Of a DNA stretch of 64,000 nucleotides, positions 5,600 through 57,852 are shown piece after piece (within the stretch, counting starts at the first letter, position 1; each line of letters begins with the position of its first letter). Made by a program: the position numbers and the translations under genes. Origin of the DNA: Clostridiales bacterium. GTDB lineage: Bacteria; Bacillota; Clostridia; Lachnospirales; Lachnospiraceae. The DNA lies in the NCBI GenBank assembly GCA_012839295.1, contig DUNO01000020.1:1-64000 (forward strand). The letters run 5' to 3'. Under the pieces are notes generated by a model. It did no database searches. It was not told the DNA's origin and saw nothing but the letters and a program-made list of their open reading frames with translations.

Positions 5600-8299
5600 A
5601 TGAAGGACTGGCTGGAAAAAATACATATTGATGTGGAAGGAATGCAATATCCCATTGGAATTGACCAAAGGGCACCTGTATTCCACTATAGGGCAGAAGC
5701 AAAAACTGGCGGAAAATCTATCTCAGCATATCAGATTCAAGTCACAGGGGAAGACGGTCAGATAGCTTGGGATTCCGGCAGGACAGAGACGGATGGAACG
5801 CCCTACATTGTTTATGCAGGAGAAGACCTCAAGGCAAAGACATTATACTCCGTAAAGCTGAAGCTCTGGGATGAGCTTGGGAATGAATCAGGCTTTAGTG
5901 AACCCTGCAGCTTTGAGACTGGCTTCTTTGATACCCAGTGGCAGGCAGAGTGGATTGAGCCTGTGCAGGAGGATGCGTTTGAAGAAAAGGAGCTGGACTT
6001 TTTGGAGATGCTGATTCCTACACCGGAGTTTCGCGGTGGGGATGTCAGGCTAAAGGAATGTAAGAATTTAAGAAGAAAATTCCAGGCGACAGGCGGGATT
6101 AAGAAGGCAAGGCTTTATGCTTCGGCCCATGGGATATACCAGCTATACATAAATGGCAGGGAAGTATCGAGCCGGAGGCTTGCCCCGGAGACCGCCAGCC
6201 ATGAGCATATATTATATTACCAGACCTATGATGTTACGGGACTGCTGGGTCAGGGAGAGAATGTGGTCGGAGCCATATTGGCGGACGGCTGGTGGATCGG
6301 CAGGATGGGACTGGCAGGGGACAGCTGTAATTATGGCAAGCGCCTCGGATTTATCATGCAGCTGGAGCTTGAATATACCGACGGAAGAAGGGATATGATC
6401 TGCTCTGACGGGGAGTTTAAAAGTGCAGGATCCCATATCCGTTATTCAGATTTATTTATAGGCGAAAAACAGGATTTAAACCAGGATTACCAGGAATGGA
6501 AGCTGGCAGGCTTTGATGATTCAGCCTGGGAAAATTGCCTTACGGTAGAGGCCGATAAGAAGATCCTGACGGGTCAGGGCATTGATCCTATCGTAGTACA
6601 AAAGGAAATAGCAGCGAAAAAAATATTCTATACTCCAAGCCGTGAGCTGGTGATCGACTTTGGACAGGTCATGGCGGGAGTTGGCAGATTTGAGATAGAG
6701 GCGGCCAAGGGTACGGAGGTGACCTTTGAGCACAGCGAGGTAATAGATAAAAACGGGAATTTTAAGAATAATATCATTGGAAGGAACAAGGACCAGAAGG
6801 ATGTGCTGGTATGCAGGGAGGGGCACCAGGTATTTGAACCCCTATTCACCTACCATGGGTTTCGCTATGTGAAGATCACAGGCATCGGCAAGAAGCAGCT
6901 ACTCAGCGCGAAGGCCTTGGTCATGGGTACAGCCCTCCAAAAGATCGGTTCCTTCTCCTGCTCCGATGAACGCTTAAACAAGCTCCAGCACAATATCGAG
7001 TGGAGTACCGTCAGCAACATGTTCTCCGTGCCCACGGATTGCCCCCAGAGGGAAAAGCTTGGCTGGACAGGAGATATCCAGGTCTATACGAAGACGGGCA
7101 GCTTTAATTATGACTTGAAGAATTTTCTGGAGGGCTGGATGAGGAATGTCCGGGCTGATCAGAATGAGGATGGGGAAATCCCCGTCGTCGTGCCGAACCT
7201 TCCGAAGCAGGAACGCACCCAGCGGGTCATGAGTGGGGATAATTCCTCCGCAGCCTGGGGTGATGCCTGTGTGTTGGTTCCTTACGGCCTATACCTGCAT
7301 TATGGTGATGTCCAGGTACTGCGTGATAATTTTGCATGCATGCAGCGTTGGCTCCAATATGTGAAGAAGTCCGCAGGCCGGAAGCCGGAGGGCTATGAGG
7401 AATTTACAGCAGCGCAGAAGGAGCGCAGCCCATATCTTTGGACGAAGCAGTACCATTTTGGTGATTGGTTGATTCCAAGCCTGCGGGCGTTGCCGGACGG
7501 GGTTATGAGGGGAACAAAGGAGACGGCGGCAGTTGTAGGAAGCTGTTATTATGCAATTACTGTAACCCATTTCATCAAGGTATGCGAAGCCCTTGGGGAA
7601 AGCAAGCTGGCCGCAGAGCATCGGAGCCTGCTAAAGAATATTAAGAAGGCTGTCCGGGAAGAGTTTGTTGCAGAGGATGGAACTGTGAATAACAGCGCCC
7701 TCCAGGGCTTGTATGTTATCGTATTGGCCTCCGGGGCCGTGGAAGGAGACTTAAAGCATAAGGTATTGGAGAAGCTGGTCACCTTAATTAAGGATAATGA
7801 TTACTGCCTGGATACAGGCTTTGCCAGCATACCCTTCCTGCTGGATGTATTATATGACAACGGTTACCCTGAGGTGGCATACCGATTGCTCTTCCAGACA
7901 AAGGCACCTTCTTGGCTGTATATGGTACAGAACGGGGCTACCTCCATGTGGGAGAACTGGCTGGCAGTCCTGGAGGACGGAACGCCCACAGATTCCTCCT
8001 ATAACCATTACGCCTTCGGCTGCGTAGGAGATTTCATCTACCGCCATATCGGAGGAATCCAGATTGCAGAGCCCGGATATAGGAAGATATTATTTAATCC
8101 GGATCTGGGCTGCGGATTGACCCGGAGCAAGTGTGAAGTCATTTCACCCTATGGCAGGGTGGCTCTGGACTGGAAGCTGGAGGGGAATAAATGCAGGCTG
8201 AGGGGTGAGGTGCCCCTGGGATGCAGTGCAACCTTGTGCGTAAATCAAAAAGAGCTTGAGCTTTCCAGCGGAAGCTTTACAATAGAATTAGAGATTTAA
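5600..8299 (+). CDS. alpha-L-rhamnosidase, GH78 family
   Basis: Hydrolyses terminal alpha-L-rhamnose from oligosaccharides or glycosides. The order of parts is an N-terminal fibronectin-like beta domain, the Bac_rhamnosid_N carbohydrate-binding region (about 180-340), the concanavalin-like region, the (alpha/alpha)6 catalytic barrel (about 460-810) and a C-terminal beta-sandwich. The barrel begins with the family hallmark DCPQREKLGWTGD (residues 480-492), whose Glu485 aligns with the general acid. The motif MWENW near 782 carries the probable base. I chose the ATG at 5600, which has an upstream purine site; the frame is open back to 5498 but that stretch looks non-coding. Length is about 899 aa, normal for GH78. 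There is no signal peptide, so it should act in the cytoplasm on imported substrate. Confidence 0.92.
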   Translation: MKDWLEKIHIDVEGMQYPIGIDQRAPVFHYRAEAKTGGKSISAYQIQVTGEDGQIAWDSGRTETDGTPYIVYAGEDLKAKTLYSVKLKLWDELGNESGFSEPCSFETGFFDTQWQAEWIEPVQEDAFEEKELDFLEMLIPTPEFRGGDVRLKECKNLRRKFQATGGIKKARLYASAHGIYQLYINGREVSSRRLAPETASHEHILYYQTYDVTGLLGQGENVVGAILADGWWIGRMGLAGDSCNYGKRLGFIMQLELEYTDGRRDMICSDGEFKSAGSHIRYSDLFIGEKQDLNQDYQEWKLAGFDDSAWENCLTVEADKKILTGQGIDPIVVQKEIAAKKIFYTPSRELVIDFGQVMAGVGRFEIEAAKGTEVTFEHSEVIDKNGNFKNNIIGRNKDQKDVLVCREGHQVFEPLFTYHGFRYVKITGIGKKQLLSAKALVMGTALQKIGSFSCSDERLNKLQHNIEWSTVSNMFSVPTDCPQREKLGWTGDIQVYTKTGSFNYDLKNFLEGWMRNVRADQNEDGEIPVVVPNLPKQERTQRVMSGDNSSAAWGDACVLVPYGLYLHYGDVQVLRDNFACMQRWLQYVKKSAGRKPEGYEEFTAAQKERSPYLWTKQYHFGDWLIPSLRALPDGVMRGTKETAAVVGSCYYAITVTHFIKVCEALGESKLAAEHRSLLKNIKKAVREEFVAEDGTVNNSALQGLYVIVLASGAVEGDLKHKVLEKLVTLIKDNDYCLDTGFASIPFLLDVLYDNGYPEVAYRLLFQTKAPSWLYMVQNGATSMWENWLAVLEDGTPTDSSYNHYAFGCVGDFIYRHIGGIQIAEPGYRKILFNPDLGCGLTRSKCEVISPYGRVALDWKLEGNKCRLRGEVPLGCSATLCVNQKELELSSGSFTIELEI

Positions 8300-45014: not shown

Positions 45015-46136
45015 ATGAAGGTATTTAGAAGATTTTTAAGTTGCTTATTGGTGTTAGCCATGGCAATGACGATGTTTACAGGTTGCAGCCAAAAAAATAA
45101 CAGCAGTAACAATAAGGATACCCAGGAGAGTGCAACGGATGTTGCAAAAGACGCAATAACGCAAGCAGCCGATGCAGCAGGAAAAGATAAAAAAGTAACT
45201 ATCGGATGGGCTATGGCATATTTTGATCATCCCGTATATCAGCTTTTAATGGAAGGTGCGCAGGATGTGGCAGATAGTCTTGATAATTGCGAGCTGATCT
45301 TTGCTGACGGCAAGAATGATGCGACGACTCAGGCCTCACAGATTGACACATTTATTGCGCAGAAAGTGGATGCCATTATTTTAACGGCGGCAGTATCTGA
45401 TCCCATGCTCCCATCCATCAAGAAAATAAATGATGTTGGAATTCCATTGATCATTGTAGACCGCCGTATTCTGTCCCAGGGTCAGGATGTGACATGGGAA
45501 TGTTATGTAACCTGGGACATGGTTCTTTCAGGAACACAGGGTGCGGAACAGACAATTGAAGCACTTGGTGGTGCAGGAAATGCAAAAGGTAAAGTTGTAG
45601 TTGTGGAAGGAACAGCCGGTGCTGGTTCTACTATTGACCGCGGCGGTGCATATTATTCCAAACTGGAAGAAGAACCCGGAATCGAAGTGATTTATAAAGT
45701 AGACGGTGATTTTGACAGAATCAAAGGAATGGAAGTTACAGAGACGATTTTACAAAGATATCCCAATAAGGGTGATTTTGATGTGATCTATTACATGAAT
45801 GATGAGATGGCACTGGGCGGACTTCAGGCTATAGAAGCAGCCGGAAGACTTGGAGAGTTCCAGATCATTAGTGTAGATGGTGAGAAAGAAGCCCTGGATG
45901 CCGTCCGTGATGGAAAGATTAATTATGAAGTTATGTTCAAACCTGATGAACAGGCAGTAGCGGTAGATATTGCTTATAAACTTGCACTGGGTCAGGAAGT
46001 AGATTATTCCAATATCGAATATAAAGGAACTAAGATTGAACGGACAACAACAGATGACGGCTTCACCTGGATGAGACCAACCTGCTATAAAATAGACAGT
46101 ACAAACTGCAACGAACCTGAATTCCAGGGATGGTAA
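45015..46136 (+). CDS. substrate-binding lipoprotein (Peripla_BP_4) of the glycyl-radical island
   Basis: A lipoprotein of 373 aa. The signal peptide ends in the lipobox FTGC (Cys25), followed by an Asn/Ser/Asp linker to about residue 58. The binding fold starts at VTIGWAMAYFDHPVYQLLMEGAQ. Further segments are KVDAIILTAAVSDPMLPSIKK and IYYMNDEMALGGLQAIEAAG. The ligand is a small polyol, sugar or related compound by family, but not known. It precedes the glycyl radical enzyme, not the ATPase, so the transporter is interleaved with the enzyme genes. Confidence 0.9.
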   Translation: MKVFRRFLSCLLVLAMAMTMFTGCSQKNNSSNNKDTQESATDVAKDAITQAADAAGKDKKVTIGWAMAYFDHPVYQLLMEGAQDVADSLDNCELIFADGKNDATTQASQIDTFIAQKVDAIILTAAVSDPMLPSIKKINDVGIPLIIVDRRILSQGQDVTWECYVTWDMVLSGTQGAEQTIEALGGAGNAKGKVVVVEGTAGAGSTIDRGGAYYSKLEEEPGIEVIYKVDGDFDRIKGMEVTETILQRYPNKGDFDVIYYMNDEMALGGLQAIEAAGRLGEFQIISVDGEKEALDAVRDGKINYEVMFKPDEQAVAVDIAYKLALGQEVDYSNIEYKGTKIERTTTDDGFTWMRPTCYKIDSTNCNEPEFQGW

Positions 46137-46257: not shown

Positions 46258-48510
46258 ATGGAAACTATGACGCAAGAACCTTTTCACTACCAGATCTACA
46301 ATAAGCCGGTAAGAACGGAAAGAATAGATCATCTGTATCATTATGTGGGTGCTTCTAAAGTGGGCATGTGCATGGAACGGGGACGGATCATTACAGAAGT
46401 TTATAAAAAGAATAGATATTGGCCTCCGATTTTACTGAGAGCGGTTACCTTGAAAACAATTCTTGAGCAAATGTCCATCTATATTATGCCGGGAAGTCTT
46501 TTGGCAGGCAATCAGGCAAGCAAACCCAACTATGCACCGTTATTTCCGGAATTTGCGGTAGATTTCCTGGAGGAAGAGTTTATATATGGAAGGCCATATT
46601 TTCCTGATGAGCGACCGGCTGATAAAATTGAATATAGCAGAGAAGATATGCCGGAATTAAAGGAGATGATTAATTTCTGGAAAGGGAATACACATAAGGA
46701 CCGGTTATATGCCAACTTGCCAAAGGAGGCAATATCAGCTCAGGATGATGTGGGAGCGGTGAATATTGTTAACTTTATGCATGGCGGTTGCGGCCATCTC
46801 ACACCGCCTTGGCCTTGGCTGTTTGCCCATGGTTTAAAAGAGATTATCCGTATCTGTGATGAGAATATCGCAGGGCTCGAGATGTGGACCATCGAGGGAA
46901 TGGAGAAAAATAGATTTTATACCGCTGCGAAGACCGTATGTGAGGGAATGATTACATACGCCAAACGATATGCAGCTCTTGCAATGGAACTGGCAAAAAA
47001 AGAAGAAGATAAGACACGCAAGAAAGAATTGATGGAGCTGTCCATAATCTGCAATAAGGTACCGGAGAATCCGGCAGAGACATTTTATGAGGCACTACAG
47101 TTTATGACATTTGTTCAATTTGGCATCCAGATTGAAGACAATGCCCAGGGGATCAGCCCCGGCAGATTTGATCAGGTGATGTATCCGTTTTATGAAAAAG
47201 ATAAAAAAGCAGGAATCATAACCTGTGATTCTGCTACTGAACTAATAGAGAATTTCTTTGTGCTTTTATCAACGGTGGAACGTATGAGATCCTGGGATGA
47301 TACGGCATATTTCCGCGGAAAGCCTATTTTCCAGAACTTAACCACCGGAGGGACTGATCCGGAAACCGGAGAAGATGCAACCAATGAATTATCTTATATG
47401 ATAATGGACTGCATTGCCAATACCAGAACCCTACAACCTTCTCATTATGTACGTTGGCATAAGAATACGCCGTTGGAATTTAAATTAAAGATTGCAGAGA
47501 CAATCCGTCTTGGCACAGGTTTTCCCGCAATCGCCAACGATGAATTATATATTCCGGCTATGATAAACAGAGGATATGACCCAAAAGATGCAGCGGATTA
47601 CTGCATTGAAGGGTGTGCGGAACCGGGGGTAGCCGGATTAAGAGGCGGACGTACCGGAGCAGCCTGGTTCTGTCTTGCCAAAATACTTGAGACAAGTTTA
47701 TACAACGGTTTCGATCCGAGAAGTGGCGTAACTCTCCATCAGAATAAGAATGGAAAAGATTTGGAGACCTTTGCGAGTTTTGAAGAGGTATGGGAAGCAT
47801 TTATGGATCAGATGCAGTATTATGCCAGGATCCACGTTATTATGGATAACACTACCGACCGTTTATGGGAGGAATATATGGAAGAACCATTGACCTCCGT
47901 TTTGGGTTGTACCCTGACCTGTCTTGAGAGGGGAAAATCCATTAAGCGCGGCGGAGCAAAATATGATTTTACCGGAAATGAAACCATAGGTACGGCAAAT
48001 GCTGGTAACAGCTTATATGCTATTAAAAAACTGATTTTCGAGGATAAACTTCTGACAGGTGGACAGTTAAAGCATGCCCTGCTCACCGACTTTAAAGATA
48101 TGACCACTAATCCTACGGGAGCCGAGATTCAGCAGATGTGTCTAAATGTCCCGAAATACGGGAATGACGTGGAAGAAGTGGATATGTTGGTCAGCAAGGT
48201 ATTGGAAAGCGTATGTATGGAACTTCCCAAATATAAGAACACACGTTACGGAAGAGGTCCCATCGGCGGAATTTTTCAGGCATCCACTACAACCGTATCT
48301 TCCAATACTCCCTTTGGTATGTTAACGGGTTCTTTGCCGGATGGGAGAAGCAATGGAATGTCCCTGTCTGACGGACAGTCACCCATGCGGGGGACGGATA
48401 CCAAGGGGCCTACGGCAGCGGTAAAATCCGTATCCCGTTGTAATAATTTACTGTTATCGGAAGGATCATTGTATAATATGAAACTTCTTCCCCAAGATTT
48501 AAGGGATTGA
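46258..48510 (+). CDS. glycyl radical enzyme, catalytic subunit lacking the glycyl-radical domain
   Basis: A 750-aa member of the PFL/glycerol-dehydratase family. The ten-stranded barrel is complete: the cap region MHGGCGHLTPPWPWLFAHGL (about 171-190), TLQPSHYVRWHKNTP near 394, and the active-site loop YCIEGCAEPGV with thiyl Cys453 and the neighbouring base Glu455. A Cys-x-Glu arrangement is that of the dehydratase/lyase branch, not of pyruvate formate-lyase (which has two Cys). The chain stops at SLYNMKLLPQDLRD, exactly where single-chain enzymes go on into the C-terminal glycyl-radical domain. That domain is encoded separately at 48528. I do not recognise the substrate; the residues around GHLTPPW are unusual for glycerol or choline enzymes. 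Confidence 0.92.
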   Translation: METMTQEPFHYQIYNKPVRTERIDHLYHYVGASKVGMCMERGRIITEVYKKNRYWPPILLRAVTLKTILEQMSIYIMPGSLLAGNQASKPNYAPLFPEFAVDFLEEEFIYGRPYFPDERPADKIEYSREDMPELKEMINFWKGNTHKDRLYANLPKEAISAQDDVGAVNIVNFMHGGCGHLTPPWPWLFAHGLKEIIRICDENIAGLEMWTIEGMEKNRFYTAAKTVCEGMITYAKRYAALAMELAKKEEDKTRKKELMELSIICNKVPENPAETFYEALQFMTFVQFGIQIEDNAQGISPGRFDQVMYPFYEKDKKAGIITCDSATELIENFFVLLSTVERMRSWDDTAYFRGKPIFQNLTTGGTDPETGEDATNELSYMIMDCIANTRTLQPSHYVRWHKNTPLEFKLKIAETIRLGTGFPAIANDELYIPAMINRGYDPKDAADYCIEGCAEPGVAGLRGGRTGAAWFCLAKILETSLYNGFDPRSGVTLHQNKNGKDLETFASFEEVWEAFMDQMQYYARIHVIMDNTTDRLWEEYMEEPLTSVLGCTLTCLERGKSIKRGGAKYDFTGNETIGTANAGNSLYAIKKLIFEDKLLTGGQLKHALLTDFKDMTTNPTGAEIQQMCLNVPKYGNDVEEVDMLVSKVLESVCMELPKYKNTRYGRGPIGGIFQASTTTVSSNTPFGMLTGSLPDGRSNGMSLSDGQSPMRGTDTKGPTAAVKSVSRCNNLLLSEGSLYNMKLLPQDLRD

Positions 48511-48527
48511 TAGAAAGGAGATATCGT

Positions 48528-48764
48528 ATGGAACAAAGTGCGGGATTAAACAGATTAGTAAATCTGGTTGATTATTATTTTACCCTTGGAGGAATGCAGA
48601 TACAATTTAATGTTGTCAGCAAAGAAACCCTCCTAAGAGCCCAGGAAGACCCATCCAAATATCAGAATCTGATTGTACGTGTAGCCGGATACTCCGCCTA
48701 TTTTGTAAATCTGGAAAAGAAGGTACAGCAGGACATTATAGAAAGAACAGAAGAAAAAATCTAA
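48528..48764 (+). CDS. glycyl-radical subunit (stand-alone C-terminal domain)
   Basis: A 78-aa protein equal to the C-terminal domain of glycyl radical enzymes. It has the lead-in LVNLVDYYFTLGGMQIQFNVV, then ETLLRAQEDPSKYQNLIVRV and the radical loop VRVAGYSAYFVNL, in which Gly54 would carry the radical. The gene has its own ribosome site (AAAGGAG, 7 bases before ATG) and begins 18 bases after the stop of the catalytic subunit gene, in a different relation of frame, so this is not a simple stop mutation. The radical must be passed to Cys453 of the partner chain. YfiD/GrcA is a known stand-alone radical domain, but it repairs a complete enzyme; here no full-length enzyme is seen. Confidence 0.92.
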   Translation: MEQSAGLNRLVNLVDYYFTLGGMQIQFNVVSKETLLRAQEDPSKYQNLIVRVAGYSAYFVNLEKKVQQDIIERTEEKI

Positions 48765-48844: not shown

Positions 48845-49792
48845 ATGACTGAAAATAAAGAAGGAATTATTTTTGATATTCAACGATGGAGCATTCATGA
48901 CGGGCCCGGAATCCGAAGCAATGTATTCTTTAAGGGATGCCCCCTTCGCTGCAAATGGTGCAGTAATCCGGAATCACAGGAGGTTTATCAGGAATTGGCT
49001 TTCTTCCGGGGAAAATGTATCGGATGCGGCAGGTGTATTACCAATTGTCCCTATCAGGCGATTACTCCGTCAGAAGAAGGAAATATCATTGATTATACCA
49101 TATGTCAAAGGCAATGCTATCAAGGTAAGGGCGGATATGCTTGCACTTCCCAGTGTTATGCCAAGGCCTTAAAGGTGATCGGAGAAAAAGTACCCCTTCC
49201 GGATATTATGAAAGAGGTATTAAGTGACAGCAAATTATATGAGCAAAGTGGAGGAGGTATCACTGTTACCGGCGGAGAACCCTTTACACAACCGGATTTT
49301 TTACTGGAATTATTACGTTTTAGTAAGGAAAAGGGTTTGCACACCACGGTTGAGACCTGTGCCTTTACATCGTGGAAGTATTTCGAACCTGCGCTGGACT
49401 ATATCGATTTCCTATTTGTTGATTTTAAACTTTATGATGAAGAGAAACATATCGCCTATACAGGAACATCCAACAAAATTATAAAAGAGAATCTGTGCCG
49501 CATCAATGAATATGCCAAGAACCATAAACTGACCCTCGTAATCCGTACGCCGGTCATAACAGGGATTAATGATTCTGAGGAAGAAATCAGGCTTATAGCA
49601 GCTTGGATCAAAGAGCATCTTTCGGAAGTTCATATCTATCAGCTGCTTCCTTATCATAGGCTTGGCAGAGGAAAATATCATGATATAGGAAAGTCGTATG
49701 AATTAGAGGAGACAGAGCCTCCTGCAGCTGATGTGATCGGAGCATTGGAGCAAATAATAAGGAGTCATGGGCTGGATATAAAATATGACTAG
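48845..49792 (+). CDS. glycyl-radical-enzyme activating enzyme (radical SAM)
   Basis: Installs the glycyl radical by S-adenosylmethionine cleavage. Of 315 aa, residues 30-40 hold the radical-SAM cluster motif KGCPLRCKWCS (C32, C36, C39). Two additional iron-sulfur clusters follow, CIGCGRCITNC (C58, C61, C64, C68) and the C87-C91-C100-C104 set, as in glycerol-dehydratase and choline-lyase activases. VTGGEPFTQPDF and RTPVITGIND are typical later motifs. The start is ATG 48845; the frame is open upstream to 48788 without a site. Its target is the separate 78-aa subunit. Confidence 0.95.
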   Translation: MTENKEGIIFDIQRWSIHDGPGIRSNVFFKGCPLRCKWCSNPESQEVYQELAFFRGKCIGCGRCITNCPYQAITPSEEGNIIDYTICQRQCYQGKGGYACTSQCYAKALKVIGEKVPLPDIMKEVLSDSKLYEQSGGGITVTGGEPFTQPDFLLELLRFSKEKGLHTTVETCAFTSWKYFEPALDYIDFLFVDFKLYDEEKHIAYTGTSNKIIKENLCRINEYAKNHKLTLVIRTPVITGINDSEEEIRLIAAWIKEHLSEVHIYQLLPYHRLGRGKYHDIGKSYELEETEPPAADVIGALEQIIRSHGLDIKYD

Positions 49793-49804: not shown

Positions 49805-51331
49805 ATGAATGAAAATATAATTTTGCGGATGAATAACATAAGTAAGTCTTTTCCTGGAGTAAAAGCCTTACAAAAAGTAAACTTTGAGGTAAAACAAGGG
49901 GAGGTACATGCTCTTCTGGGTGAGAATGGTGCAGGAAAATCCACCCTGCTTAAGATATTAGCCGGTGCCTATACGAAGGATGAAGGAGAGATATATATCA
50001 ACGGTAAGATCATTGAAAATATGGATCCGAAAACGGCAGAAGAACTGGGAATATCCATTATTTATCAGGAATTTAGCTGTCTACCTTATCTAAGTGTGGC
50101 GGAAAACATATTTCTGGGAAGGCAGCCAAGAAAGAGCAATGGCTTGATAGACTGGAAAAAATGCTATGAAGACAGCAAAAAGCTTCTTGACAGAGTAGGG
50201 CTTAAGGTAGATCCGAAAACTCTGGTAGCGGATCTAAAGGTGGCGGAGCAGCAGATGGTAGAGATCACTAAGGCTCTGTCCAAAAATGCACATATTATTG
50301 TAATGGATGAACCGACTGCCCCCCTGACCCAGAGAGAAATAGATAATTTGTTTCTGGTGATTAAAGATTTAAAAAAGCAGGGAGTATCCATCATTTATGT
50401 GTCTCATCGTCTGGTTGAGATTAAGGAAATCTGCAACAGAATCACTGTACTGCGGGATGGATGCTACATTGGTGAAACGGAGGTGGCTTCTGTTACTGTA
50501 CAGGATATGATCCGGATGATGGTAGGCCGCAATCTGACAGATATGTTTCCAAGATCCAATGCAGAAATTGGTGGCAAGATGCTGGAAGTGGATCATCTGA
50601 GTACGGCGGACAAATTAAAAGATATCAGTTTTCATGTAAGGAGAGGTGAAATTCTTGGAATTGCCGGACTGGTAGGGGCCGGCCGGACAGAACTTGCAAG
50701 AGCTGTTTTTGGAGCGGATCCGATATCGGAAGGTACGATTAGGATGAACGGTGAAGTAATTAAGATCAACAGCCCATCGGATGCCATTTCCTATAGAATG
50801 GGGCTGGTTCCGGAAGATCGGAAAAGACAGGGCTTGATCTTAAGAATGAATGTGAAGGACAACACCACCCTTGCAAGCTTAAAGAGCTTTATCAGACTGG
50901 GAAAATTAAATTTATTCGAGGAAGAAAAGATATCCCTTACTTATATGAATAAATTGAAGGTAGTAACTCCCGGAATCTTTGAAAAAGTAAATAATCTTTC
51001 AGGAGGAAACCAGCAGAAGGTAGTACTCAGCAAATGGCTCTGCGCCAACTGCAGTCTGTTAATCATTGACGAGCCTACGAGAGGAATCGATGTTGGGGCT
51101 AAGGTTGAAATCTATGAATTAATGAATGAACTTGTAAGAGGAGGACTAGGTATTATTATGATTTCTTCCGAGATGCCGGAATTAATGGGTGTATGTGACA
51201 GAATTCTGGTAATGCATGAGGGAACCATAACAGGAGAGTTAATGCGTGATAAATTTTCGGAAGAAACAATTATGGCTTTTGCAGCAGGACAGCATCCAGA
51301 AACTGAGGAGGATAAGAATGTCAGGAGATAA
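49805..51331 (+). CDS. sugar-type ABC transporter ATPase, duplicated
   Basis: A 508-aa tandem ABC ATPase of the RbsA/XylG type. First domain: Walker A LLGENGAGKSTL (about 39-50), IIYQEF Q-loop, Walker B IIVMDEPTAPLTQ. Second domain: altered Walker A (GLVGAGRTEL), LSGGNQQKVVLSKWL and LLIIDEPTRGIDVG. The GAGGAGG site precedes the ATG, 12 bases after the activase stop. It overlaps the next permease gene by 14 bases. It should power import of the substrate of the glycyl radical enzyme. Confidence 0.95.
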   Translation: MNENIILRMNNISKSFPGVKALQKVNFEVKQGEVHALLGENGAGKSTLLKILAGAYTKDEGEIYINGKIIENMDPKTAEELGISIIYQEFSCLPYLSVAENIFLGRQPRKSNGLIDWKKCYEDSKKLLDRVGLKVDPKTLVADLKVAEQQMVEITKALSKNAHIIVMDEPTAPLTQREIDNLFLVIKDLKKQGVSIIYVSHRLVEIKEICNRITVLRDGCYIGETEVASVTVQDMIRMMVGRNLTDMFPRSNAEIGGKMLEVDHLSTADKLKDISFHVRRGEILGIAGLVGAGRTELARAVFGADPISEGTIRMNGEVIKINSPSDAISYRMGLVPEDRKRQGLILRMNVKDNTTLASLKSFIRLGKLNLFEEEKISLTYMNKLKVVTPGIFEKVNNLSGGNQQKVVLSKWLCANCSLLIIDEPTRGIDVGAKVEIYELMNELVRGGLGIIMISSEMPELMGVCDRILVMHEGTITGELMRDKFSEETIMAFAAGQHPETEEDKNVRR

Positions 51332-52346
51332 ATCTAAAAATACTTCATTTGGAACCAAGATATTGTTGGGAATTAGACCCCATTTGATGCTTTTAGCAGC
51401 ACTATTTTTATTAATGATTATCATGAGTTTTATTGCACCAAATTTTTTGACCAAGGGAAATATGCTGGATATCATGCGCGTGAATTCCATTAAAGGGATT
51501 ATGTCCATCGGTATGACATTGATTTTATTGACAGGTGGTATTGACTTGTCCATTGGAGCTACATTTGCGGTAGCAGGAGCTGTGGCGGCTTCCCTCATCG
51601 GTGGAGGTTACAGTGATTACGCTACCAGTAATCTGATTAAGCTTCCTACCTTAATTGCGATAATCATAGCACTTATGGTCAGTGCTATGATTGGAATGGT
51701 GAACGGTGTTGTAATTACAAAACTTAGGGTGGAACCTTTTATCGCCACGTTGGCAATGATGACTTTTGCAAGAGGTATTACATATCTGTACACCGGAGGG
51801 TATCCAATTAATTTCAAACCGATACCGGACAGCTTTGCATGGTTTGGTAAAGGGTATTTTCTCGATATACCGGTTCCGGCCCTAATCTTTATTATTGTCG
51901 TTCTTGTAGGAGGCTTCGTCCTGAAGTATACCTGCTACGGGCGCTCTCTCTATGCCATTGGAGGAAACAGGGAAACAGCCAAACTGAGCGGTATACAGAT
52001 CAATAAAAATATCTGCAGGGCTTATATTGTAATGGCGGTTTTATCGGGACTTGCAGGGATTATTATGACCTCCCGTGTGGCGTCCGCTTCCGCCGTGGCA
52101 GGAGAAGGTTATGAGATGGATGTTATCGCTAGTGTTGTATTGGGAGGCACTTCTCTCGCTGGAGGCAAGGGAACTATTATTGGTACAGTGATTGGAATTT
52201 TTATTTTAGGAGTAATAGAAAATGGTTTGAATATCCTGGGAATACCGACTTATTTTAAAATCATTATTAAAGGACTTATCATCATATTAGCATTGGGATA
52301 TCACGCATTTTCTCATACATCAAAAAAAAGGAAGGTCACAGTATGA
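51318..52346 (+). CDS. ABC transporter permease (RbsC-like) 1
   Basis: A 342-aa polytopic permease. Motifs: GMTLILLTGGIDLSIGATFAVAG, GGNRETAKLSGIQINK and VVLGGTSLAGGKGTIIGTVIG. I use ATG 51318, which has GAGGAGG upstream, inside the end of the ATPase gene; the in-frame codon at 51246 is far inside that gene. Its last codons overlap the ATG of the second permease (ATGA at 52343). Confidence 0.93.
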   Translation: MSGDKSKNTSFGTKILLGIRPHLMLLAALFLLMIIMSFIAPNFLTKGNMLDIMRVNSIKGIMSIGMTLILLTGGIDLSIGATFAVAGAVAASLIGGGYSDYATSNLIKLPTLIAIIIALMVSAMIGMVNGVVITKLRVEPFIATLAMMTFARGITYLYTGGYPINFKPIPDSFAWFGKGYFLDIPVPALIFIIVVLVGGFVLKYTCYGRSLYAIGGNRETAKLSGIQINKNICRAYIVMAVLSGLAGIIMTSRVASASAVAGEGYEMDVIASVVLGGTSLAGGKGTIIGTVIGIFILGVIENGLNILGIPTYFKIIIKGLIIILALGYHAFSHTSKKRKVTV

Positions 52347-53347
52347 AAATAAATCTGAGAAAAAGCCTTATTTGTATCAATCAGCAGAAACTGATTGCAA
52401 TTTTCCTGGTGTTTATGTTCCTTGGCTTTACACTGGCAAAACCAGAATTCGCATCAAGTTACAGTATTAATAATATTTTGTGCACCATGGCACTTTATGG
52501 TATCGCATCCCTGGGTATGACATTGGTTATCCTCACAGGCGGTACAGATTTGTCTGCCGGTTCCGTAATGGCTTTATCCGGTGTCATCGGGGCAGGACTG
52601 CTGGGAAAGGCATTCAGTGCAGCCAATCCAGTAAGTCTTCCCTTTGCGGCAACGGTTCTGATCGCTCTTATCTTCAGTGGTTTGATAGGATATCTGAACG
52701 GAATCGTAATTACGAAGTTAAAGATTGCTCCTTTTGTAGCCACTCTTGCCATGATGTCCATTGCCAGAGGATTAGTGTATGTTGTTGCAGATTCTGTAGT
52801 ACAGGGCGTATCTGGTTCCCCCATTACCTTTATGAATGACGGATATTCCCTGTTGGGACAGGGGAAAATAGGTGCTGTACCGGTTCAGTTTATCGTGTAT
52901 GTGATCCTTTTCCTGATTGTATTTGTCTTTTTGAAATACACAAGAACAGGAAGGAGTATTTATACGGTAGGCGGTAACATAGATACGGCAAAACTGGCAG
53001 GGATCAAGACAAATAAAATCATTGTTTTAACCTATACGGTTAGTAGTATCCTGGTCGGGATCAGCGGACTAATTCTGGTAGGTAGACTGTCTAGTGCTTC
53101 TACCGTAGCGGCCAAAGGGTATGAACTCGATTTTATAACGGCGGTTGCACTTGGAGGAACAAGTGTGGCAGGAGGACGCGGAAGTGTTATCGGGACATTA
53201 CTTGGGACGGCATTTCTGGCCGTATTAAATAATGGTCTTGATATTGTAAATGTAAAATCCTTTTATCAATATCTGATCAAGGGTCTGATTCTTGTTTTTG
53301 CCGTCTGTGCTGACCTTTTTATGAATAAAAGGGTAAAAAAATCGTAA
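52343..53347 (+). CDS. ABC transporter permease (RbsC-like) 2
   Basis: A 334-aa polytopic permease, sister of the preceding one. Motifs: GMTLVILTGGTDLSAGSVMALSG, GGNIDTAKLAGIKTNK and AVALGGTSVAGGRGSVIGTLLG. It overlaps the first permease by four bases, so both are made together and probably form a heterodimer. It ends the transport part of the island. Confidence 0.93.
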   Translation: MKINLRKSLICINQQKLIAIFLVFMFLGFTLAKPEFASSYSINNILCTMALYGIASLGMTLVILTGGTDLSAGSVMALSGVIGAGLLGKAFSAANPVSLPFAATVLIALIFSGLIGYLNGIVITKLKIAPFVATLAMMSIARGLVYVVADSVVQGVSGSPITFMNDGYSLLGQGKIGAVPVQFIVYVILFLIVFVFLKYTRTGRSIYTVGGNIDTAKLAGIKTNKIIVLTYTVSSILVGISGLILVGRLSSASTVAAKGYELDFITAVALGGTSVAGGRGSVIGTLLGTAFLAVLNNGLDIVNVKSFYQYLIKGLILVFAVCADLFMNKRVKKS

Positions 53348-53370: not shown

Positions 53371-53445
53371 AATGGACAGGCTGGTACTCTGTAAATAGCG
53401 GTTTGTTAGATAGGCCGCTCAGACTATTTGGTCTCTGAACAGGTG

Positions 53446-54633
53446 ATGAAAAGAGGCGTAGCAGTGGTTTTGAAAAATGCAAAGATTTATTGTTTGATGT
53501 TGTTTGGAATGTTTTTATTTACAGGCTGTGGTATGGATTCCGGTCTTCAAATCAGTAAAGCAAACATGGAGCTAAAAGATACCATCGACTTTATGATTTG
53601 TTGGCCCGAGGAATCTTTGCGCGGAAGTAAAATAAAGCGGCTTGTTGATAATTATAATCTTTTGGCGGATGAAAAATCAAAAATTAATTTAGTTACGATT
53701 TCCGACAGGGAAGATTATATGGCTGAATTAAAAACCTTGGCGGCAACCAATGAACTTCCTGATATCTTTATCTGTATCAGAAACAGAGAAGATCTATTTT
53801 TGGAGGAATCCGGCAAACTGATGAATCTGGCGCCCTATCAGGAGGAGCTAAATTATGAGGAGAAAAGAGCCAAGAATATACCTGGCGATTTTTATAACCA
53901 AGAATTACTTAGCATTTGTTTTGAAATCCCTGCTCTCCGTTTTTATTATTTGAAAGACATGGCGGATTCCTACGGATATCCCTTTGTCTCAAATGATCCG
54001 AAATTACTTTATAAAATGTATGATCATATATTGAAGTCGGAAAATGGAATACTGCAAATAGAAGATTATATATCGTCCGGTGAAGGTCTTTCCTTCCTTT
54101 ATTTCTTGCGTGCCCAGAATAAGGACTTTGATTCTTCCAACGAGGAAGACTGGGAAAACATATTAAAAATATGGAAACATTATTCCAAGGTATTTGGAAC
54201 GTTCAAGAATCAATATACCCCTAATGAAACAGGCAATAATATCAAATTATGTAATATAAATAATGCTGCGTTCAGTGAACCTTGGACAGAGGCATCAGAT
54301 CTGTACAATTCCGTAATTTTGTCGGATAAGAACGATCAGACGTTATTTGGAAGTCCCCTGTGCCTGGCTGCCTTAAGACAGAATGATAAAGAAAAAGAAG
54401 AAAAAGTGATTTGTTTTATCAGCAGTTTTCTGGAGGAGAACTGGTCAGATATTCAGAAGATGGATTTACCGGAAAATCAACTTGATTTATTCGATGATAC
54501 TGTAATAAATGTAACCGAAAGTGAAAATCTGGATCCCAGACAGAAGGATGAAATGAAGGAAGTACTTCGAATGCTGCTCATGGAAACTATGGATTATCAG
54601 GAGTGTGCCAGGATCATTGCAAAATATTGGTAA
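53446..54633 (+). CDS. extracellular solute-binding-like lipoprotein, sensor accessory
   Basis: A lipoprotein with signal peptide and lipobox LFTGC, followed by a domain related to family 1 solute-binding proteins (DTIDFMICWPEESLRGSKI; IFICIRNREDL). About 395 aa with the ATG at 53446; a longer TTG start at 53428 is possible. No permease of the family-1 kind is nearby. Instead it is the first gene of a unit with an AraC-type response regulator and a LytS-type kinase. It therefore most likely presents a ligand to the kinase, as accessory binding proteins do in such clostridial systems. Confidence 0.78.
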   Translation: MKRGVAVVLKNAKIYCLMLFGMFLFTGCGMDSGLQISKANMELKDTIDFMICWPEESLRGSKIKRLVDNYNLLADEKSKINLVTISDREDYMAELKTLAATNELPDIFICIRNREDLFLEESGKLMNLAPYQEELNYEEKRAKNIPGDFYNQELLSICFEIPALRFYYLKDMADSYGYPFVSNDPKLLYKMYDHILKSENGILQIEDYISSGEGLSFLYFLRAQNKDFDSSNEEDWENILKIWKHYSKVFGTFKNQYTPNETGNNIKLCNINNAAFSEPWTEASDLYNSVILSDKNDQTLFGSPLCLAALRQNDKEKEEKVICFISSFLEENWSDIQKMDLPENQLDLFDDTVINVTESENLDPRQKDEMKEVLRMLLMETMDYQECARIIAKYW

Positions 54634-54653
54634 TGACAGCAAGAAAGGGATAT

Positions 54654-56210
54654 ATGAAGATTTTATTTGTTGATGATGAAAAAATTATTCGGGACGGTAT
54701 GCGGGAATTAATTGATTGGAAAAAGTTGAATTGTACCAGACTTGTCATGGCAAAAAATGTAGCAGAGGCAATTGAAATTTTAGAAAGGGAAAATTTTGAT
54801 CTGGTAATTACCGATATCTGCATGCAAAAAATGACTGGTATAGAATTTGCCAAATATATTAAAAAAACCAGACCTCATATAAAAGTAATTATTTTATCGG
54901 CATATGAAAACTTTAGTTATGCAAGAGAAGCAATTGAAGCAGGTGTGCTGAAGTATATGTTAAAACCGGTAATTCCGTCGGAACTGGAGGATGCTGTCCT
55001 GGAAGCGACAAAACTGATCCATTCCGAGGTGAAACTGCAAAACCGGGCGCAGGAATCGGAAAAACTAGCAAGTATCTATCAACCTATTCTGGCAAAAGAT
55101 TTCTGGAAACTGTTACTGAGGGGAGAAATTCAGGATGAAAAAGATATTACGCAGCGCATCTATCTGGCGGGTATCGTACTGCCAGAAGGAAATCTGGGAT
55201 GCATATTATTCTCCGCAAGAGATAAAGGTGCCATGATTACAGATATGGATGTAACAAATATCCATATAAAATATAGGGCGGTATTTGATTGTGTCAGGAT
55301 AGACAGGCATACTATCATATTTCTGTCTTCCAGGGAGCTGACCGGGGAAGAACTTGATGATCTGAAGACGGAAGTTGAGAGCACAATAAAGTGTAATGTA
55401 ATTTTTGTACAGGGTAACTATGTTGATAAAATTACGGATTTGCATTTATCATATCTCCATGGGGAGCAGTTAATGGAGTTTTACCGGGCGATTTCAATGT
55501 CAGACAGTGTAAAAGATATGGAGAATCTGAATGGGATACTTAATTCGGAAAAAATCCGGAAAATCACAGAGAAATTAAAAGAAGATATGCAATACCGATC
55601 CCAGGTTGTTACGAAAAATGTCACCGCTTATTATAAACAGTTAGAGGAATGCAATTTGTCGGAAAGTCAGCAAAACATTGCCGAGGGTAGGCTACTATAC
55701 GAGCTGATTCAGATGGAAAAGAAACAAAAGAAATTATCCGATAAAGATTTCCAGGAGGTTTTTCAGAAATATCTGCAATGTGATTCTGTCCAAAAGAGAA
55801 AATTGTTTATTGTTGACCTGATTCAGCAGGCAATGGATATTCGCAAATCAAATGTAATCAATGATACTGACAAACTTATCGCCGATGCAAAAAAATTCAT
55901 GATGGATCATTTTCAGGATGAGCAGCTGACCATTAACAGCATAGCGGCCTCCCTTCATGTCAGCACCAGTTATTTATCTAGAGTTTTCAAGAAAAGGACA
56001 GGGATGACCTGTATTGAATATATCACAAATAAAAGAATTGAAAGAGCAAAATCGTTTTTAGCCAACACTGAAATGAAGCACCATCAGATTGTTCAGGAAA
56101 TTGGATATTCTAATGTATATTATTTTAGTGTCCAATTTAAGAAAATAACAGGAGAAACACCAGGTCAATATCGAAAACGAATGGAAGATGAAAATGTTCA
56201 AGACAATTAG
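54654..56210 (+). CDS. AraC-type response regulator (YesN-like)
   Basis: A 518-aa two-component regulator. The receiver domain has VDDEKIIRDGM, phospho-acceptor Asp54 in LVITDICMQKMTG and Lys in LKPV near 105. A long helical middle (about 140-410) follows. The C-terminal AraC domain has two HTH motifs: TINSIAASLHVSTSYLSRVFKK and QIVQEIGYSNVYYFSVQFKK. The ATG at 54654 has AAAGGGA upstream. Its gene overlaps the kinase gene. It should activate the glycyl-radical island when the ligand is present. Confidence 0.92.
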   Translation: MKILFVDDEKIIRDGMRELIDWKKLNCTRLVMAKNVAEAIEILERENFDLVITDICMQKMTGIEFAKYIKKTRPHIKVIILSAYENFSYAREAIEAGVLKYMLKPVIPSELEDAVLEATKLIHSEVKLQNRAQESEKLASIYQPILAKDFWKLLLRGEIQDEKDITQRIYLAGIVLPEGNLGCILFSARDKGAMITDMDVTNIHIKYRAVFDCVRIDRHTIIFLSSRELTGEELDDLKTEVESTIKCNVIFVQGNYVDKITDLHLSYLHGEQLMEFYRAISMSDSVKDMENLNGILNSEKIRKITEKLKEDMQYRSQVVTKNVTAYYKQLEECNLSESQQNIAEGRLLYELIQMEKKQKKLSDKDFQEVFQKYLQCDSVQKRKLFIVDLIQQAMDIRKSNVINDTDKLIADAKKFMMDHFQDEQLTINSIAASLHVSTSYLSRVFKKRTGMTCIEYITNKRIERAKSFLANTEMKHHQIVQEIGYSNVYYFSVQFKKITGETPGQYRKRMEDENVQDN

Positions 56211-57852
56211 GGGAAAAATTATTTTTAACTTTTTAATCATATTGATCAGTGTTTTCTTGTTGTTTAGCATTATTAGCTACAGGGTATTGGGAAATCACTT
56301 AACCGTAGCCCAGCTAAACAGTCAGACCAGTCTTGCAGAAGCACTATGCAAGTCCATCGATTATTGGAAAAGTAATTGTGAAGATATTTCGGTCGACATT
56401 GTCACGGATCCTTATCTTCAGGATTCCCTACTGAATATTTATGACGGAGGTATGACACATAGGGAAGAACTGGCAGATTATCTCGAAAAAATTAAAAAAA
56501 GTAATACTATTATCGAAGATATTTTTATTGTAGATAAAACTTACTCCATTCTTGGAACCGGTGACACCGCAGCAGTAAGACCTTATGTATATGATAGAAT
56601 CAGCAGATCGGAACGTTATGCCGGCAGTGCCGTATGGGACAGCGGCTACGATACAAAGAGTATGATTTTATACCGGAATATTAATGATATCAGATATAAT
56701 CCCAATGATAGCCTCGGTTATCTTTTTATCCAGATAGATAATAATGAAATCCTGCAGTTATTTAATAGCTACCGGCTGTATGGAAGTCAGAGATTTTCCT
56801 TGAAGGGTACCAGAGATGGATTTGAGGTAACAGAGCGGGGCTTCTTTTATAATTATTATGATAATTATATCAATCTGCTGCATTCAGAGATAACTATGGG
56901 GGATTGGTATCTGAGGACCTGGAGTGACAAGGCTATAGCCATGGAACCTGCGATCAGACTCCTGAAGCAATTGGCGGCAATTGTAGCAGCATCCCTTGTG
57001 GCTACCGTTTTATTTAGTCTGGCGACCACAAGCCGGATCACAAAGCCAATCCGGAAAATGCGTGAGATCATGGAATATTACGGGGAAGGAGATTTTACCG
57101 CAAAAGTAGAAATCGTTGGTAATGACGAGCTTGCCAGACTTGGAGAAGGCCTGAATCAGATGTCGGAACAGATATCTGATTTATTTGATGTAGTAAAGGA
57201 AGAGGAAAATCAGAGAAGAAAGCTGGAACTGCAGACACTGGTTTATCAGATAAATCCTCATTTCCTTTACAATACCCTTGATTCCGTTAATATTCTTGCA
57301 CGTCAGAACAAAGACGATAAAGTGGCTGAAATCGTCACAGACTTATCCAGACTGTTCCGGTTGGGATTGCATAAGGGGCAGGATATCATTCCGGTAAGGG
57401 ATGAAATCATGCATGTAACCTATTATCTGAAAATACAGGAAATCAGATTTAGCGAGCAGCTCAAATGGAAAATCCAGGTTGATGAAAGCATCATGAACCA
57501 AAACATGGTCAAATTCATCCTCCAGCCCATTGTAGAAAATGCCATCTATCATGGTGTAAAGTCAAAAGATGAACCTGGGCTTATTACGGTTGCAGGATAT
57601 CAACAGGACAATGCCATTATCTTTCAGGTAGAGGATACCGGCATGGGGATGGAGGAAGAACTATGCAGGGAAATAGAGCAGAAAATTCATCAGGACACTA
57701 TATTTGACACAGAAGAAGGAGGTTTTGGATTAATCAACGTAAGCCAAAGAATTCGTTTGATGTATGGAGTAGAATCTGGTTTATTTATCACCAGTACGCT
57801 CGGGCAGGGAACCATTGTGGAAATCCGTTTAATTGGAGAAGTAAAAGTATGA
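56188..57852 (+). CDS. LytS/YesM-type sensor histidine kinase
   Basis: A 554-aa membrane kinase. Two transmembrane helices (about 12-32 and 262-285) enclose an extracellular Cache-like sensor domain. A HAMP domain follows (TSRITKPIRKMREIMEYYGEGDF), then the His_kinase motif YQINPHFLYNTLDSVNI near 353 and HATPase with LQPIVENAIYHGV and GMGMEE. Its start overlaps the regulator gene by 23 bases. The extracellular part probably contacts the lipoprotein at 53446. Confidence 0.92.
   Translation: MKMFKTIRGKIIFNFLIILISVFLLFSIISYRVLGNHLTVAQLNSQTSLAEALCKSIDYWKSNCEDISVDIVTDPYLQDSLLNIYDGGMTHREELADYLEKIKKSNTIIEDIFIVDKTYSILGTGDTAAVRPYVYDRISRSERYAGSAVWDSGYDTKSMILYRNINDIRYNPNDSLGYLFIQIDNNEILQLFNSYRLYGSQRFSLKGTRDGFEVTERGFFYNYYDNYINLLHSEITMGDWYLRTWSDKAIAMEPAIRLLKQLAAIVAASLVATVLFSLATTSRITKPIRKMREIMEYYGEGDFTAKVEIVGNDELARLGEGLNQMSEQISDLFDVVKEEENQRRKLELQTLVYQINPHFLYNTLDSVNILARQNKDDKVAEIVTDLSRLFRLGLHKGQDIIPVRDEIMHVTYYLKIQEIRFSEQLKWKIQVDESIMNQNMVKFILQPIVENAIYHGVKSKDEPGLITVAGYQQDNAIIFQVEDTGMGMEEELCREIEQKIHQDTIFDTEEGGFGLINVSQRIRLMYGVESGLFITSTLGQGTIVEIRLIGEVKV

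Follow-up and report, generated by a model that had tools for sequence, protein, structure and literature searches.

Glycyl radical enzymes are described as carrying their catalytic barrel and their radical loop on one chain, the loop having to flip out for activation and back for catalysis. Some of these enzymes contain more than one kind of chain, as does the locus that we describe here; benzylsuccinate synthase is one of them, and the small subunits added to it are not known to be radical domains. Hydroxyphenylacetate decarboxylase is another, and its small subunit is described as a [4Fe-4S] subunit and not as a radical domain (PMC6181972). A small radical domain is made as a separate protein, as in our locus, in the case of YfiD/GrcA and of T4 Y06I, from which the radical is passed to a cysteine on another chain (PMC8683613, PMC12338860). 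That a radical on one chain can drive another is illustrated by E. coli PflB G734A, which yields formate together with GrcA and none without it (PMC12338860). YfiD/GrcA and Y06I rescue a complete pyruvate formate-lyase (PFL) that has been cleaved by oxygen, whereas the large chain of our locus has no radical domain of its own; one of the reports names YfiD and Y06I as the only validated spare parts, both for PFL, and offers GrcA-like repair of other enzymes as a guess (PMC8683613).

Two further systems bear comparison with the locus. The NCBIfam family GrcA3 (NF038360, autonomous glycyl radical cofactor) is likewise a separately encoded radical domain, of 78 positions, and in ten loci that we examined it adjoins a PFL chain that lacks the domain. 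GrcA3 belongs to the pyruvate formate-lyase line, however, while our large chain belongs to the TIGR01774 line and our small chain scores 69.6 against the GrcA3 cut-off of 158. The B12-independent glycerol and 1,2-propanediol dehydratases resemble our enzyme in the thiyl cysteine, the glutamate and the histidine, which are kept, and in having an activase of the same broad family, but the known ones are single-chain and their His281, Ser282 and Asp447 are replaced in our enzyme. Among open-licence papers, searched by title and by the opening of the abstract, we found none on a split glycyl radical enzyme, and open-licence papers likewise gave none on GrcA2 or GrcA3 or on a split PFL.

The divided locus, its neighbours and its genome

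The locus lies in a 64,000-nucleotide stretch of DNA, the window, which is contig C19 in a genome of 6.36 Mb and 82 contigs (Table 1). We conclude from sequence comparison that it very probably encodes a two-chain glycyl radical enzyme, in which the large chain would be a barrel without a radical domain and the small chain the radical subunit that the large chain needs.

Table 1. Features of the split locus and of the genes around it (window positions)
Feature	Position	Strand	Remarks
RbsB-like sugar-binding lipoprotein of ABC importer	45015..46136	+	PF13407
Large catalytic chain, 750 aa	46258..48510	+	PFL-like barrel; Cys453 (codon 47614-47616), Glu455; C-terminus LLPQDLRD just ahead of radical domain
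Spacer, 17 nt	48511..48527	+	second stop TAG 48511-48513; ribosome site AAGGAG 48515-48520
Small radical chain, 78 aa	48528..48764	+	glycyl-radical domain, RVAGY; Gly54 codon 48687-48689
Glycyl-radical activase, radical SAM	48845..49792	+	TIGR02494, 331.6 bits against cut-off of 174.35
ABC importer ATPase	49805..51331	+	two ABC_tran stretches
ABC importer permease	51246..52346	+	PF02653 from residue 72; listed start GTG, true start probably later
Second ABC importer permease	52343..53347	+	PF02653
Solute-binding-like lipoprotein	53428..54633	+	PF13416, weak, below cut-off; perhaps sensory
AraC-type response regulator	54603..56210	+	
Sensor histidine kinase	56188..57852	+	

Barrel and radical domain do not share a single polypeptide in the window. 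In Pfam searches PF02901 covers residues 21-687 of the large chain (profile positions 3-647 of 647; 630.6 bits), while the Gly_radical profile (PF01228) is divided, with positions 2-46 on the large chain and 50-106 on the small one, and this domain, with its radical glycine, is complete only when both genes are taken together. TIGR01774 runs contiguously over the two genes (large chain 3-708, small chain 709-786); the large chain by itself scores 577.1 bits against a cut-off of 678.2, a shortfall to be expected of a large chain without its end. The large gene stops at TGA (48508-48510), with a TAG directly behind it, and the small gene begins at its own ATG in a different frame. The break falls in a short linker ahead of the first helix of the radical domain: the window reads LLPQDLRD, a stop and then MEQSAGLNRLVNLVDYYF, where the fused chain of C. 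symbiosum, discussed below, continues uninterrupted as LLPQDLSEDAGLNRLVNLSDYYF. The initial annotation had claimed that the catalytic chain ends before the radical domain, that the small gene has a ribosome site of its own and that the key residues are Gly54 and Cys453. All of this holds: both open reading frames are present and the Pfam and TIGR01774 profiles divide cleanly between them, the AAGGAG stands ahead of the ATG, and the codons of both residues are in place (Table 1). A promoter scan of the region stayed at chance level, with 48 found against 43.0 expected.

The Gly_radical search of the whole genome gave eight matches. Four are full-length proteins, on contigs C18, C22, C36 and C55; the rest are the two halves each of the window's pair and of a second split pair on C73. 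Typed from 622-628 residues each, the C18 and C22 proteins are pyruvate formate-lyases and the C55 protein is an anaerobic ribonucleotide reductase; the C36 protein is an enzyme of the broad TIGR01774 subfamily, as is the large chain of the window. The C73 pair (L009, 4669-7008 and 7080-7331) has a binding protein, ATPase, permease and activase of its own, and its chains are 55% (large, over 738 columns) and 63% (small) identical to those of the window. Divergent genes stand beside split pairs of the C73 type (L009 49-4321, L039 2361-6414 and L088 5571-9650, all on the minus strand) and encode an ABC-ATPase-like protein, a histidine kinase and an AraC-type response regulator; these are likely to be regulators of those pairs. 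At another split locus (L077 12520-13499 in G247, the same as L085) the activase is spread over two frames, of 86 and 257 aa, which we read as a frameshift or an error.

The four full-length proteins bear on whether the small protein could be a spare part of the YfiD/GrcA type that repairs a complete enzyme, the truncated large gene being dead or irrelevant. Its radical domain does stand alone, and a complete relative is at hand: C36, the nearest in the genome, is of the same broad TIGR01774 subfamily and shares 39 identities over 71 columns with the window's small chain at its C-terminus. We nevertheless consider this reading very improbable. The small chain matches the C73 small chain better (score 258) than the C-terminus of C36 (204), and it falls far under the cut-offs for GrcA (42.3 against 170), GrcA2 (50.9 against 145) and GrcA3 (given above). 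The small gene lies directly behind a domain-less large gene wherever the contig is long enough, and purifying selection acts on both genes in the 8 loci for which we measured it (see below). Finally, a PF01228 search of 11 genomes with clade members found, at E 0.001, the split pair and no other match in Moorella stamsii (G1503), G1248 and G1315, the last two of which are rated 100% complete, although such a search would miss a ribonucleotide reductase that is too distant. In these three genomes, unlike the setting in which YfiD/GrcA works, there is no complete enzyme matching PF01228, and the small protein therefore cannot be a YfiD-type spare part there. The other 8 of the 11 genomes hold further Gly_radical proteins. 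With a profile of the small chain as the query, the split small chain was the only match at E 1e-20 in 5 of 9 named genomes. We thus reject the view that the small protein is a spare part and nothing else, which the three genomes without another PF01228 match, the GrcA scores and the selection on both genes speak against. The initial annotation had seen no complete partner for the small protein; this is borne out in three of the 11 genomes, the kind of genome in which it had proposed to look for the same pair, but not in the window's own genome with its four other full-length Gly_radical proteins. An additional role as a spare part for C36 is possible in the window's genome, and such a role would not supply the domain that the adjacent large chain lacks.

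Recurrence, junctions and descent of the split pair

In total we count 21 distinct split loci, among them loci from Faecalicatena, Moorella, Ruminiclostridium, Bacillus and one Verrucomicrobiota MAG. They are the window, L009, L039, L072, L073, L074, L075, L076, L077, L080-L084, L087-L090 and L166-L168, with L073 and L079, whose contigs are equally long, counted as one locus and L077 and L085 likewise; contig ends cut L074 and L075 on the large side and L166 on the small side. Among the matches listed for 397 genomes of the window's family, those of the small chain fell into two groups, an upper one of 8 rows from 7 genomes (140-175 bits, frames of 84-106 aa) and a lower one of at most 109 bits that consisted nearly entirely of long single frames. 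One more split pair was found, in G003, among 34 genomes of the genus. Splits also appeared, at E 1e-32 to 1e-35, for G000 and G071 in a sample of the order (392 genomes), for G000 and G853 in one of the class (391) and for G000, G1248 and G1315 in one of the phylum (398); these samples overlap one another and the family sample, and that of the phylum also yielded a fused form in G1257. A scan of GTDB contigs returned at least 591 pattern matches and at least 567 relatives, of which the best 80 were kept; 13 of these loci share 53-83% identity and the other 67 no more than 40%. The small gene is directly behind the large one in 11 of the 13, the two others being L078 (C. symbiosum), which is fused, and L086, where the contig ends about 180 bases past the large gene. 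In all 67 of the more distant loci one frame holds both parts. Natural single-chain fusions thus number two, that of C. symbiosum (L078, a frame of 844 aa) and that of G1257 (L169, 900 aa).

Two candidates were set aside. L040 (4000-5039, in G007) has a PFL-like frame of 290 aa followed by an out-of-frame radical-domain frame of 94 aa, which is probably an internal deletion. L041 (G012) is a match at a contig edge that we read, from its letters and from the PflA-like gene behind it, as an ordinary PFL truncated by the edge.

Junctions were measured at 20 of the 21 loci, the window included and L074 left out; that of L166 is ambiguous because its contig ends within the small gene. All three stop codons are represented at the 20 junctions. 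Nineteen junctions have a clear start; their spacers range from 15 to 153 nt, and the frame of the small gene relative to the large one is 0 in 10 cases, 1 in 4 and 2 in 5. A purine-rich ribosome-site motif of at least 4 letters precedes the small start in 19 of 19, the starts having been picked with the motif in view and without a chance control. Where both genes share a frame, as at 10 of the 19, one could imagine that a single chain arises by programmed frameshift or stop readthrough. The frames, stops and spacers vary too much for this to be the rule, and we reject it as such; ribosome-site motifs stand ahead of the small start, the window itself presents two stops and a frame change, and we regard this explanation as even less probable than the spare part. 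Readthrough could yield a rare fused product at the 10 same-frame junctions.

The split itself, and nothing further, would fit an error of sequencing, or a gene in decay whose single frame was lost only recently. We computed pN/pS for eight pairs of each chain from 8 of the 21 loci; it lies between 0.07 and 0.16 in the large chain and between 0.08 and 0.12 in the small one. Synonymous change is mostly saturated, and in these 8 loci purifying selection acts on the two genes alike. The recurrence of the split at 21 distinct loci, a second one in the same genome among them, the ribosome-site motifs and the low pN/pS of the loci tested lead us to reject error and pseudogene alike, and we hold this the least credible of the explanations that we weighed.

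A tree (IQ-TREE) was made from 32 rows, comprising 20 split large chains, which represent 19 of the 21 loci, together with 2 fused chains and 10 others, and omitting L074 and L075 (no large chain), the second copy of L076, and L086. The 20 split and 2 fused rows form one clade (support 100/100). The fused chain of C. symbiosum lies within the window's subclade (100/100), and the G1257 fusion (L169) pairs with L168 (94/85). At least three changes between the split and fused states are needed in this tree, which does not fix the root within the clade, so that the G1257 fusion may be either ancestral or a rejoining; several branches are long and the program warns of long branches meeting. An earlier quick tree with other outgroup rows likewise grouped C. 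symbiosum with the split rows in a single clade. The presence of two natural fusions inside the split clade suggests that both chains are parts of one enzyme, and the fusions show that the split state is dispensable for function. The two-component reading that the initial annotation had put forward is thus well supported by comparison, given that the same adjacent pair occurs elsewhere and is the sole PF01228 match in three of the 11 genomes.

Two loci, L076 (8326-13977, minus strand) and L087 (7534-12563, plus strand), contain two large split chains and one small radical chain each. A single small chain might accordingly act as a diffusible carrier that supplies the radical to at least two large chains or to further glycyl radical enzymes, and either genome has just one split-type small chain. 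We think such sharing rather unlikely. The remaining loci have one large and one small gene, and in L076 the products of the two large genes show 98-100% identity in each block of 100 residues between 301 and 700, so that one gene may be a recent copy.

Chemistry and proposed mechanism of the probable two-chain enzyme

With either chain as the query, the first three PDB matches by sequence were 1r8w, 5i2a and 9rco, which belong to the glycerol and 1,2-propanediol dehydratases. Alignment to 1r8w shows that Cys433, Glu435 and His164 are kept (as Cys453, Glu455 and His180), while His281, Ser282 and Asp447, which we take to be the substrate-binding residues of glycerol dehydratase, are changed to Gln297, Gly298 and Gly467. 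The other clade rows in the alignment have Gln, Ala, Val or Tyr at the His281 site and Gly at both the Ser282 and the Asp447 sites, and after the catalytic cysteine the clade rows in it read G-R-T-G, compared with W-H-D in glycerol dehydratase. Since the substrate residues of glycerol dehydratase are lost, the substrate should differ from that of glycerol dehydratase. The Cys-x-Glu motif is presumably the mark of the eliminase kind, and it is on this basis that we class the window's enzyme as an eliminase.

The large chain scores under the NCBIfam equivalog cut-offs for trans-4-hydroxyproline dehydratase (377.1 against 1100), CutC (415.6 against 1050) and the PflD type (407.7 against 1109); the small chain adds 98.2, 68.1 and 81 bits, respectively, and the missing end is therefore a minor part of the shortfall. 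Given the sugar-type importer, the substrate would be sugar-like. The neighbours of the Moorella pair encode a glucokinase-like ROK kinase, a PGI/PMI, a 1-PFK and a GatY-type aldolase, those of the G1257 locus a protein like a sugar isomerase, a class II aldolase and an FGGY kinase, and in G1248 sugar genes also lie nearby, by the look of the listed protein starts. The sugar genes beside the Moorella and G1257 loci indicate a sugar substrate, for which no single compound can be named. We note that YbiW with 1,5-anhydroglucitol-6-phosphate (8id7) is among the structural matches, which shows merely that the fold accepts sugar-like compounds.

A model of the 824-residue fused chain from C. symbiosum, built with 35 rows, has a mean pLDDT of 90.9 and a pTM of 0.91, with strands at 795-798 and 801-804 beside Gly800. 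Compared with the PDB, it finds 1,2-propanediol and glycerol dehydratases on top (TM 0.92-0.93), and as the match extends over 811-815 columns for 824 residues, the radical domain must lie inside it; the radical domain of the fused form is so placed, in the model, as in the known enzymes. The small chain of the window modelled alone (AlphaFold, nine rows) has a confidence of 66.7 and a helix in place of the radical loop. This poor model may mean that the small chain needs its partner, or merely that nine rows are too few.

We propose that in the two-chain enzyme the adjoining activase would load the radical onto Gly54 of the small chain, which would dock at the site that the C-terminal domain occupies in single-chain relatives. 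Gly54 would take a hydrogen from Cys453 across the chain boundary, and the Cys453 thiyl radical would then start an elimination on a sugar-like substrate that the neighbouring ABC importer takes up. Radical transfer between chains, known for GrcA and PflB of E. coli, would by analogy be the normal mode here.

Apparently split pyruvate formate-lyases and the separate radical chain

A second kind of split is seen in the window's family. G143 (L175, 5479-9113) encodes a split pyruvate formate-lyase together with PflA, and L178-L186 are similar. The PFL chain of G143 has 691 aa and matches TIGR01255 over 2-668 of 744 positions (1113.5 bits), and its small chain is a radical domain of 81 aa that scores over the GrcA3 cut-off. 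With this small chain as the query against 250 family genomes, one from each genus, the matches listed show 95 genomes (110 rows) with a frame of 159 aa or less; frame length is the criterion, and some of these frames may be cut by contig ends. Among the matches listed, 50 of those 95 genomes have no second match at E 1e-12, and one of the 95, G118, has a full-length row as well. We looked more closely at 18 of the 95. In ten loci (that of G143 and nine more) a PFL chain without the domain and PflA adjoin the small chain, which is over the GrcA3 cut-off in all ten. The PF01228 profile is divided in 12 of 12 genomes, four of them among the ten, with halves up to about 1.1 kb apart. Apart from the divided halves, PF01228 matches frames of 714-767 aa in eight of these 12 genomes, a frame of 502 aa in G126 and frames of 803-804 aa in G182 and G227; G275 has no further PF01228 match. 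Some frames of the small half are long (848 aa in G158, 860 aa in G853) and seem to come from the search output joining two halves of one candidate, the small frame of G853 being 94 aa. Many genomes of the window's family thus appear to have a split PFL, and since this split and that of the window's enzyme fall in different subfamilies, the two look independent.

L175 also holds a frame of 67 aa (7621-7824) that begins like a radical domain and lacks the radical glycine. A similar stretch in L179 and L181-L184 seems to form the C-terminal tail of the large PFL chain. Such stretches, whose endings are Cys-rich and of the form P-N/T-L, are possibly a docking part.

Tentatively, and with somewhat more doubt than conviction, we suggest that splitting of the radical domain is recurrent, with at least two origins (the dehydratase-like clade and the PFL of the family), and that the small chain may be a reloadable carrier that is charged while free, docks, can be swapped after an oxygen cut and may serve more than one large chain, in which case members of GrcA3 would be true catalytic subunits. 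The radical part looks like an exchangeable subunit and not like a fixed end of the enzyme. With a radical chain that is naturally separate, activation, docking and radical transfer can each be tested alone, and the radical subunit can be labelled or exchanged. A separate radical chain would answer oxygen damage while sparing the chain of 750 residues. If the same is true of the PFL of this family, a central fermentation enzyme would consist of two chains, the smaller of which now carries the annotation of a repair cofactor.
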